Shown one piece after another: positions 28,879 through 31,945 of a stretch of 44,682 nucleotides of DNA. Source of the stretch: a virus; the IMG/VR virus record IMGVR_UViG_3300032315_000254, positions 1 to 44,682 of that record; one strand, written 5' to 3'. The translations under genes were made by a program, and so were the position numbers. The notes under the pieces are model-generated. The model saw nothing but the letters and a program-made list of their open reading frames with translations, was not told the DNA's origin and did no database searches. The stretch's first letter is position 1. The number at the start of each line of letters is the position of its first letter.

Positions 28879-30375
28879 TTGTTAACGCTTAGACCGCATC
28901 AATTAGAAGTTGTAGAAAAGATCCGTGAAGGATTTGAGCAAGGACATACAAGGCAGTTACTGTATGCTCCAACTGGATTCGGCAAGACCGAGGTAGCGAT
29001 GTCCATCATGAAGACTATCGCTGACGATTACCAAAAGACCGCAATGATCTTGGATCGAGTGGTGCTGGTGGATCAAACCAGTATCCGGCTTACCAAATAT
29101 GGAATTGAACATGGCGTTATGCAGTCCAATCATTGGAGAAAAAGACCCGATGAGCGGATTCAGATTTGCTCAGCTCAAACCATTGAGAAGCGTGGAGAAA
29201 AACTAAACATAGATCTACTGATTATTGACGAGTGCCACATCACTCGCCGAGGCACAGTAGAGTTCATGAAAAACAATCCCCATATCAAGGTGGTTGGATT
29301 GACCGCTACGCCATTCACAAAAGGGTTGGGTGATATCTATACCCATGTAGTCGGGGCGACTCCTACGGGCGAACTGATTGAGAAGGGATGGCTTGTCCCG
29401 CTCAAGGTGTTTATCGCTAAAGAAATTGATATGACTGGTGTCATCAAGCAGATGGGCGAGTGGAAAGCTGACGATGTTACCAAGCGAGGTATGGCTATTA
29501 CTGGTGATATCGTGGGCGAGTGGATCAAGAAAACCCATGAAGTCTTTGGCGGCCCAAGAAAGACAATCGTATTCTGTTCTGGTGTTGAGCATGGTCGTGA
29601 TCTAGTCAAGCAGTTTGCAGATGCGGGATATAACTTTGTATCCATATCGTACAAGGAAGACGACCAGTATAAGAAGGATATGATTGAGCTGTTCAGCCAG
29701 AGGGATACAGAGATTCACGGTCTTATTGCGACTGACATTCTTACCCGTGGATTTGATGTCACCGATGTAATGATTGGCGTATCAGCCCGTCCGTTCTCCA
29801 AATCGTTTAGCTCCCATGTCCAGCAATTAGGCAGGGTAATGCGCCCGCATGAGGGTAAAGAGTTTGGCTTATGGCTAGATCACTCTGGTAATTTTCTGAG
29901 ATTCAGGGAAGACTGGGACAAGATCTACACCGAGGGCGTTGACAAACTGCAGGAAGGTGGACTTGATCGTACCCGGAAAGAGCCAACAGAAAAAGAAAAG
30001 ATCCAAGCAAAATGCCCTGAGTGCAAGGAGCTATGGATCTCAAAGACAAATGTATGCCATTCCTGCGGTCACGAACGGCAGAATCTAAGTCTTATTCTAT
30101 CACTGCCTGGTGAGCTTGAAGAACTTAAAGAGGCTAATAGGAAGCTACAGATCGCTAATACAGACTTTTATGCTGAGTTGCTGTATTACGGGCGACTAAA
30201 AGGATACAAAGAGGGCTGGGCTGCAATGAAATACAAAGAGAAATATGGGGTTTACCCTAATGGTTTGCCATCAAACAGCAAGCCAACAACCGTACCTACT
30301 CTTAAGTGGATTAAGAGTCGGATGATCGCCTATTCCAAAGGCAAAATTAAATCGCAACAAAGGATGGCGGCGTGA
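28879..30375 (+). CDS. Superfamily 2 DEAD/DEAH helicase
   Basis: 498 residues from TTG at 28879, with AAGGAG six bases upstream. Motifs: RPHQLEVVEKI (Q-like), APTGFGKTEVA (Walker A), IIDECH (Walker B/DECH), GLTATPF (III), then ATDILTRGFDV (V) and QQLGRVMRPHEGK (VI). A four-cysteine element, CPECKELWISKTNVCHSCGH, sits near residue 378 and looks like a zinc ribbon. Family: SSL2/UvsW-type helicases used in phage replication or recombination restart. It is the only helicase seen. The last four bases overlap the next gene (GTGA). Confidence 0.9.
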   Translation: MLTLRPHQLEVVEKIREGFEQGHTRQLLYAPTGFGKTEVAMSIMKTIADDYQKTAMILDRVVLVDQTSIRLTKYGIEHGVMQSNHWRKRPDERIQICSAQTIEKRGEKLNIDLLIIDECHITRRGTVEFMKNNPHIKVVGLTATPFTKGLGDIYTHVVGATPTGELIEKGWLVPLKVFIAKEIDMTGVIKQMGEWKADDVTKRGMAITGDIVGEWIKKTHEVFGGPRKTIVFCSGVEHGRDLVKQFADAGYNFVSISYKEDDQYKKDMIELFSQRDTEIHGLIATDILTRGFDVTDVMIGVSARPFSKSFSSHVQQLGRVMRPHEGKEFGLWLDHSGNFLRFREDWDKIYTEGVDKLQEGGLDRTRKEPTEKEKIQAKCPECKELWISKTNVCHSCGHERQNLSLILSLPGELEELKEANRKLQIANTDFYAELLYYGRLKGYKEGWAAMKYKEKYGVYPNGLPSNSKPTTVPTLKWIKSRMIAYSKGKIKSQQRMAA

Positions 30376-30554
30376 ATGAACCCAAGAAACCAAAAGCCAA
30401 TCAATTTGCTATGACTCATGAAGAGATAGCTAGCGAAATTGGGCTGACCCGTGCAACCGTAAGTATTATTGAGGCTCGAGCTTATGAGAAAGTTAAGAGA
30501 GCATTGAAGAGGAAAGGCATCAAGATTGAAGATGTACTGGTGGATTCCAAATGA
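30372..30554 (+). CDS. Sigma-70 region 4-like protein (right copy)
   Basis: 60 residues from GTG, with the start overlapping the helicase TGA as GTGA; the in-frame ATG 13 codons later is less likely. FAMTHEEIASEIGLTRATVS then IIEARAYEKVKRALKRKGIK is a sigma-4 helix-turn-helix with the following AL-K-L helix pattern and IEDVL ending. Clear resemblance to the 58-residue protein at 25893-26069 (EEIA, T at the same place, AL.R.KG.K.ED). Probably a promoter-selective regulator of one of the operons. Confidence 0.78.
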   Translation: MNEPKKPKANQFAMTHEEIASEIGLTRATVSIIEARAYEKVKRALKRKGIKIEDVLVDSK

Positions 30555-31945
30555 GATATCTATCAGTATGCTCGGGCGTAGAGGCAGCTACTACTGCGTG
30601 GCACAATCTTGGCTGGACTCCAGTAGGGTTCTCGGAGATAGAGAAGTTCCCATCAGAAGTGTTAGCACATCATTACCCATCCGTCCCTAATCTTGGGGAC
30701 ATGACAAAATATAAGGAGTGGAATCTTGACTCAGTTAGACTTTTGGTTGGCGGAACACCCTGTCAATCATTCAGCGTTGCAGGTCTCAGAAAAGGACTTG
30801 AAGACCCTAGGGGAAACCTTGCCCTTACCTATGTTGGAATTCTTGACAAGTTTAGACCCAAGTGGTGCATATGGGAAAACGTGCCAGGTGTCCTCAGTTC
30901 AAATGGAGGACGGGATTTTGGTTCCTTCCTTGGGGCGTTGGCAGAACTCGGGTATGGGTTCGCATATCGGGTGCTTGACGCTCAATACTTCGGAGTACCC
31001 CAGCGCCGTCGTCGTGTCTTTGTTGTCGGATGTCTTGGAGACTGGGAGGCTCCAGCCAAAGTTTTACTTGAGCGGGAGGGCTTGCTTAGGAATCCTGCGC
31101 CGAGCAGAAAAACGGGGAAAGAAGTTACCGGATTTGCTCCAAGCAGCTTTGGAAACTACGGCGAGGGAGTGGGAACTCTCAGAAGAGACGGCGGAGACCT
31201 CGGAGGAGGATCAGAAACTCTAGTAACAACTAACAGAATGGTAGCGTTCGGAGAGTACTCGGATGATGGTACTGCCAGCACTTTGAAAGCCCGCGATTAC
31301 AAAGATGCTACAGATCTGATTGTGTATGAAACGCACCCAGCGGACTCAAGAGTAAAAGAGATGGGTGATGTATGTCAAACCGTAACCTCTAGGTGGGGTA
31401 CGGGCGGAGGTAATGTACCTATCGCCATTCAAGATGTATCAGGCAGGAAAAAGGCACAGAACGGGAGGGGCTGGAACGATGAAGGCGTGATGTATACGCT
31501 TGATGCAGCCGCGACTCAAGGGGTCGCTTACTCTATTCGTGAAGATGCTAAAGCTAATAACTTTAGCGCTACTCCATTAGAGGTAACGCCAGCTCTTCAG
31601 GCATTGCGCCCATCTGTTCAGTCTCACCATGCACAGACATTCATAGCGCAATCCTTTAATGTAAATGCAAGACCAGATGAAATGAAATTAGAGGTAGAGG
31701 TATCAGGAACTTTAACGGCCAGCCAAAATTCAGGACTGTTTAAGGATAGGGCGGTTCGCCGTCTTACTCCAACTGAATGCGAGAGATTGCAGGGGTTTCC
31801 AGATAACTATACAAACATTCCTTGGCGTGGCAAGCCTGACTCTCCCGATGCGCCACGATACAAGGCGATGGGTAATTCAATGGCAGTACCAGTGATGAAG
31901 TGGATCGGCAACAGAATTCAGGAGTTTGAAGATGGACTTTTATAA
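30551..31945 (+). CDS. dcm: C5-cytosine DNA methyltransferase
   Basis: 464 residues. Motif I LSVCSGVEAATTAW near the N-terminus, motif IV GGTPCQSFSVAG with catalytic Cys71, motif VI ENV at 109-111, motif VIII QRRRRVF, and motifs IX/X in LTPTECERLQGFPDNY and YKAMGNSMAVPVM. The target-recognition region (~231-395) has about five diverged repeat units whose junctions read DLIVYE, VPIAIQD, GVAYSIR and FIAQSFN. It likely protects phage DNA from host restriction; no cognate nuclease is next to it. It overlaps the previous gene by ATGA. A second ORF lies inside it in another frame at 30726-31223. Confidence 0.93.
   Translation: MRYLSVCSGVEAATTAWHNLGWTPVGFSEIEKFPSEVLAHHYPSVPNLGDMTKYKEWNLDSVRLLVGGTPCQSFSVAGLRKGLEDPRGNLALTYVGILDKFRPKWCIWENVPGVLSSNGGRDFGSFLGALAELGYGFAYRVLDAQYFGVPQRRRRVFVVGCLGDWEAPAKVLLEREGLLRNPAPSRKTGKEVTGFAPSSFGNYGEGVGTLRRDGGDLGGGSETLVTTNRMVAFGEYSDDGTASTLKARDYKDATDLIVYETHPADSRVKEMGDVCQTVTSRWGTGGGNVPIAIQDVSGRKKAQNGRGWNDEGVMYTLDAAATQGVAYSIREDAKANNFSATPLEVTPALQALRPSVQSHHAQTFIAQSFNVNARPDEMKLEVEVSGTLTASQNSGLFKDRAVRRLTPTECERLQGFPDNYTNIPWRGKPDSPDAPRYKAMGNSMAVPVMKWIGNRIQEFEDGLL
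30726..31223 (+). CDS. Nested overlapping gene inside the methyltransferase
   Basis: 165 codons in a different frame within the methyltransferase. TTG at 30726 is preceded by AAGGAG (30713-30718) at a seven-base distance, an ideal ribosome site inside the host gene. The product begins MTQLDFWLAEHPVNHS and contains SGAYGKTCQ, WQNSGMGSHIGCLTLNTSEY, SLLSDVLETG and GILRRAEKRGKKLP. I recognise these phrases from hypothetical proteins annotated in several other phage and bacterial genomes at methyltransferase loci, which suggests conservation as protein. It covers methyltransferase residues ~59-224 and stops just before the target-recognition repeats. Function unknown. Confidence 0.7.
   Translation: MTQLDFWLAEHPVNHSALQVSEKDLKTLGETLPLPMLEFLTSLDPSGAYGKTCQVSSVQMEDGILVPSLGRWQNSGMGSHIGCLTLNTSEYPSAVVVSLLSDVLETGRLQPKFYLSGRACLGILRRAEKRGKKLPDLLQAALETTAREWELSEETAETSEEDQKL

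Follow-up and report, generated by a model that had tools for sequence, protein, structure and literature searches.

The nearest precedent for the gene arrangement described here is provided by M.AquI and M.EcoHK31I, C5-cytosine DNA methyltransferases (MTases) whose parts are divided between two polypeptides, the small chain of M.EcoHK31I being encoded in an overlapping frame. In the latter enzyme, the large chain carries motifs I-VIII, motif X and the target-recognition domain (TRD), and motif IX resides in the small chain (PMC3404938). Another kind of gene hidden in a methylase is the ShiLan-type HNH endonuclease, an out-of-frame open reading frame (ORF) inside mycobacteriophage methylases that is a patchily distributed homing insertion with no detectable ribosome site (PMC11855218). 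We studied a 44,682-nucleotide stretch of viral DNA (IMG/VR record IMGVR_UViG_3300032315_000254, positions 1 to 44,682; hereafter the window), in which a 165-codon ORF is nested in the +1 frame of a C5-MTase gene. Unlike the ShiLan ORF, it is not an insertion, overprints the catalytic motifs, is preceded by a ribosome site and shows broad conservation; unlike the M.AquI and M.EcoHK31I arrangements, it is contained entirely within the MTase and its conservation extends over many phage groups. Our preferred reading, to which we give a probability of roughly 0.5 from sequence comparison, is that one phage gene yields two proteins, and that the nested one is a displaced linker segment of the enzyme acting in trans as its partner. 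Whether DNA phages and bacteria have long nested genes on the same strand is debated, and few such cases are well established; here, evidence of frame-specific selection extends over hundreds of sequences from several phage groups, and the nested gene sits in phage P1 dmt. We found no description of it in the open-licence literature, although it may have been noticed earlier elsewhere.

Layout and conservation of the nested frame

The features of the locus, all on the plus strand, are as follows.

30551 to 31945, plus strand: C5-cytosine DNA MTase, frame 0, 464 aa (PF00145, E = 6.5e-56; PHROG 116, E = 5.5e-95)
30702 to 30704, plus strand: in-frame TGA closing the nested frame upstream (from the sequence)
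30713 to 30718, plus strand: Shine-Dalgarno sequence AAGGAG of the nested gene, within MTase codons K55-E56, 7 nt from the TTG (from the sequence)
30726 to 31223, plus strand: nested overlapping gene, +1 frame of the MTase, 165 aa, TTG start (open frame, conserved start and Shine-Dalgarno sequence, synonymous constraint)
30726 to 31019, plus strand: nested N-terminal part, residues 1-98, overprinting MTase motifs IV-VIII, predicted mostly disordered (AF2 predicted local distance difference test score, pLDDT, ~30-50)
30758 to 30766, plus strand: MTase motif IV, PCQ, inside the overlap (translation)
31001 to 31021, plus strand: MTase motif VIII, QRRRRVF, inside the overlap (translation)
31020 to 31163, plus strand: nested C-terminal domain (C-domain), residues 99-146, LSDVLE...KFYLS..AC.GILRRAEKRGKKLP..L..AL, two predicted helices (AF2, codon-position variation, profile match)
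31277 to 31324, plus strand: MTase STLKARDYKDATDLIV, resembling TNTLSARYYKDGSEILI of ordinary MTases, frame 0, past the nested stop (translation)

The original prediction, made from the letters of the window alone, had placed a 165-aa ORF in another frame of the MTase, ending before target recognition, with AAGGAG 7 nt before a TTG so that the ribosome site is encoded in the host gene; the ORF is exactly as claimed, and the sequence at 30713-30718 agrees. The +1 frame is closed 7 codons upstream of the nested start in the window and its clade, and the nested ORF terminates ahead of the target-recognition part. Frame 0 retains MTase motifs I-VIII, the target-recognition part and motifs IX-X. 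Since MTase codon position 3 is nested codon position 2, nearly every silent change in the MTase alters the nested protein.

Relatives of the MTase were fetched from IMG/VR by the MTase protein alone, giving 60 distinct genes (the window clade). Here we looked for the outcomes that the original prediction held to count against a second gene, namely nested stops, lost ribosome sites or a lack of synonymous constraint, and found instead that the second frame is itself conserved. The +1 frame was open in 60/60 genes, encoding 150-174 aa from a start at MTase codon 58 (TTG) or 59 (ATG/GTG) in every one, and AAGGA(G) stood 7-11 nt upstream of the start in 54/60. Resampling synonymous codons with each gene's own codon usage gave 4.97 expected stops per gene in the +1 frame against 0 seen, with a median probability of an open frame of 0.002 (maximum 0.032); the +2 frame contained ~9 stops per gene. 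Synonymous identity was 0.54-0.92 inside the ORF in most 20-codon bins, compared to 0.38-0.45 in most bins outside, and identity at four-fold sites was 0.68 and 0.79 inside and ~0.36 outside; over the N-terminal nested part the synonymous constraint was moderate. We conclude from these comparisons that ORF 30726-31223 is a real, ancient overlapping gene, and, judged by sequence evolution, dual coding taken alone is close to certain.

Codon-position variation indicated which frame selection acts on. MTase codon position 3 varies most along the gene generally; at codons 165-210 this pattern is inverted, the fraction of pairs that differ within codons 180-195 being 0.56 at position 1, 0.38 at position 2 and 0.18 at position 3. 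Among close pairs, 48% of the changes in the C-domain alter the MTase and are silent in the nested protein and 16% do the reverse (3:1), whereas outside the ORF the corresponding values are 10% and 63% (1:6) and in the N-terminal nested part the shift is weaker (15% vs 55%), all of these being pair counts that are not phylogenetically independent. By this measure, selection across the C-domain stretch constrains the nested protein, with frame 0 as a passenger. A constraint at the level of nucleic acid only (RNA structure or a DNA signal), or one arising secondarily from conservation of the MTase, would involve no second protein, and a DNA signal would indeed give some synonymous constraint. 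Against this, the codon-position pattern and substitution classes track the +1 reading frame, the ORF avoids stops along its full length, homologues of the +1 protein are read in frame elsewhere, and ordinary MTases (E. coli Dcm, spyIM, RB43 and those of two Bacteroides phages) carry 9-46 stops in the +1 frame. We regard this explanation as barely credible, since the substitution classes already contradict it.

The nested frame in other phages and prophages

Three further MTase sets, each gathered by MTase protein, comprised 68 P1-type, 62 gut-Firmicutes-type and 66 Lactobacillales-type phage genes. The same dual-coding signal was seen in all three, bearing out the suspicion that the second frame occurs at other MTase loci, and the nested motif was retained in 68/68, 61/62 and 62/66 genes, respectively. 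The internal starts differ in place, the first three of the four MTase types having theirs near codon 59, 100 and 109; this argues that what is conserved is a need for initiation and not one frozen sequence. Shine-Dalgarno sequences of at least 4 matching bases were found near a start in 58/61, 39/65, 58/59 and 46/62 genes of the four types, the start assignment being less certain in the last. The signal was likewise present in 93 diverse genes, mostly from bacterial-genome loci, whose GC content at third codon positions (GC3) ranged from 0.24 to 0.85 (synonymous identity: 0.75-0.81 at codons 165-195 vs ~0.37 elsewhere), and prophage-like loci from many phyla also show the nested frame.

At 325/325 loci, at least 160 of them found via the nested protein alone, the nested ORF lay in the +1 frame of an MTase; no standalone copy without an overlapping MTase frame occurred among these 325. 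In phage P1, dmt (NC_005856.1) carries the nested frame, unannotated, from stop to stop at P1 66710-67201 (locus 1711-2202); counted from its first ATG, at P1 66713 (locus 1714), the encoded protein has 162 aa. Dmt peptides have been detected in P1 virion preparations, and the passages on these peptides do not mention the nested frame (PMC9024508). In Caulobacter phage CcrSC and Citrobacter phage Omnitron the nested C-domain is degraded or cut while the MTase frame is open, and these apparent losses suggest that the C-domain can be lost. On the strength of these surveys, the MTase family with the nested gene is very widespread among phages, phage P1 included.

In the mycobacteriophages Thibault, Constella and KashFlow, of the Omega type, an HNH endonuclease gene interrupts the MTase, with additional frame disruptions in Thibault. 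All three keep the nested C-domain almost identical as an 82-codon ORF (annotated as gp104 in Thibault), and in their alignment nearly all differences in the C-domain core are silent in the nested frame. This retention supports selection on the nested protein. The Thibault-type ORFs are truncations after the HNH insertion and not standalone copies. In Porcelain and other Omega-type phages the MTase is split into two annotated genes, and in Porcelain the C-terminal half shares the +1 frame of the nested ORF. In Faecalibacterium phage Toutatis, one indel (~2400 of the locus), either a mutation or a sequencing error, shifts the MTase and nested frame together.

The nested protein and the linker of ordinary methyltransferases

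AlphaFold predicted the first ~100 residues of the nested protein to be disordered and two confident helices at its end (AF2 pLDDT ~88-97 at residues 111-150; helices 34-47 and 53-76 in a model of the domain). Sequence searches of Pfam, NCBIfam and PDB with the nested protein or profiles returned nothing significant. Foldseek with the full model against viral structures gave a sole match, to Thibault gp104 of the same family (E = 4e-3); with the domain against PDB it gave generic helical hairpins only (best E = 1.8), which we rejected. Hypothetical proteins of this kind, whose occurrence elsewhere was part of the original prediction, do exist: Thibault gp104 is the C-terminal part in annotated form, and PHROG 16143 matches 82/86 nested proteins (PHROG 1008, 34/86). 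Both PHROGs are labelled DNA methyltransferase yet match the nested frame, and the label was probably inherited from the overlapping gene. An HNH or homing insertion was rejected because the nested ORF has no invariant or nearly invariant histidine and no Pfam match, and an insertion of extra DNA because the ORF overlaps MTase motifs IV-VIII, which all homologues possess.

The nested N-terminus resembles the sliding-clamp motif QL[SD]LF, with QLDFW in the window (30726-30760), exact QLDLF in Porcelain (locus 2267-2290) and NihilNomen, and QLSLF in Lactococcus CHPC1175 (locus ~2250-2265); P1-type members lack the motif or have it in degenerate form. The resemblance is suggestive only.

In Lactobacillales phages the nested protein stops directly after [C]SLSDILEE.VDEKYFLS. 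In ordinary C5-MTases this segment belongs to the enzyme's own frame and connects motif VIII to the target-recognition domain (an example is LKDILEDEVDEKYYLSDK; Dcm has TLAQLLDPMVEAKYILTPVLWKYLYR). This linker is in frame in spyIM, RB43, the Bacteroides phage MTases, E. coli Dcm and the solved cytosine MTases 3lx6 and 3me5; the homologous L.DILE..VD.KYYLS.K of the Dcm/HpaII-type linker (3lx6, 3me5) is in frame there and in the +1 frame here. A linker hidden Markov model (HMM) was built from 26 in-frame segments of ordinary MTases and used to scan 39,101 six-frame ORFs from the loci. It matched ~380 ORFs, nearly all of them nested frames (best E = 1.3e-10), matched frame 0 once only (E = 0.18), and detected 90/115 nested C-domains at E < 0.01 compared to 0/2300 shuffled sequences; the in-frame segment set is enriched for EDEVDEKY, a string in one search pattern, and Dcm, spyIM and RB43 do not depend on it. 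From these matches we take it that the nested C-domain is homologous to the linker segment of ordinary MTases (Dcm, HpaII-type) and that frame 0 lacks the linker. As in the two-polypeptide C5-MTases, a segment is absent from one chain, here frame 0, and present in the other, as the linker HMM indicates; unlike in those enzymes, the nested chain has no canonical motif IX or IX-X, which stay in frame 0. An unrelated phage protein, one of the options raised at the outset, is argued against by a C-terminal half that is an in-frame segment of ordinary MTases, and a partner of the MTase is therefore favoured over it.

Linker homology also bears on programmed ribosomal frameshifting from frame 0, which would yield a truncated MTase (motifs I-VIII and linker) with no internal initiation: the linker is what should come after motif VIII, and the annotation of Toutatis contains a joined ORF of this kind. 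However, frameshifting needs neither the upstream open +1 frame, nor a start, nor a Shine-Dalgarno sequence, yet four clades conserve these features, at positions that differ, and the Toutatis indel shifts both frames together. We consider this mechanism very improbable.

A displaced linker as a possible partner in trans

In the model that we favour, the gene would produce a frame-0 C5-MTase and, from the internal ribosome site, a nested +1 protein of ~100 mostly disordered residues followed by a small helical domain. The simplest history would be that a deletion produced a net frameshift immediately downstream of motif VIII, a place at which ordinary enzymes carry ~20 more residues ahead of the linker segment, and that another indel occurred ahead of the target-recognition part. 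The linker would thereby have been displaced into the +1 frame, leaving frame 0 across it as a weakly constrained passenger, and the displaced segment would have stayed under selection, being translated in vivo from the internal start. The nested protein would then work on the MTase in trans, docking at the former place of the linker as a small subunit or an activator, and methylation would depend on two products of one mRNA. We favour a small trans-acting partner because the nested protein corresponds to part of the enzyme and is always encoded with the MTase frame; for the subunit step itself, as judged from sequence, we would give slightly less than even odds.

Three points weigh against this model: the frame-0 MTases look complete in catalytic motifs and might need no help; the ~100-residue N-terminal part is explained only as a carrier of the start; and the nested C-domain persists beside the interrupted MTases of Omega-type phages, so it could have a function of its own. 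The last point would suit a phage accessory protein that recruited the displaced MTase segment and is a true product that does not act on its own MTase, for instance one that counters restriction or methylation by the host, or that binds the replication clamp. Survival of the C-domain through HNH interruption and indels of the MTase (Thibault, Constella, KashFlow) and the clamp-like motifs near the N-terminus (exact in some phages) are in keeping with such a role; however, the nested frame is never found away from the MTase frame in the 325 loci, its conserved part is the MTase's own segment, and P1-type members lack a clear clamp-like motif. An accessory protein is, in our estimation, rather unlikely. 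A nested protein that inhibits or tunes the MTase, as a linker mimic blocking the enzyme or competing with host MTases, would account for the linker homology and the fixed co-expression from one mRNA, but the long retention of both is difficult to square with a permanent inhibitor encoded by each copy of the enzyme gene, and on sequence grounds we hold it to be improbable.

If the nested protein is a partner of the MTase, phage cytosine methylation would be a two-component activity missed by annotation, and earlier expression of the single frame-0 gene would have co-expressed the nested protein unknowingly. A tentative extension, in which we place less than even confidence, is that the nested gene belongs universally to a major superfamily of phage MTases, selection having kept the displaced piece of the enzyme in phages and prophages from many bacterial phyla; being required in trans, it would make these MTases two-component enzymes whose components share a single stretch of DNA.

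Upstream of the MTase in the window, a 60-aa helix-turn-helix ORF (30372-30554; sigma-70 region 4-like) overlaps the MTase start by ATGA, and the MTase may therefore be translationally coupled to it.
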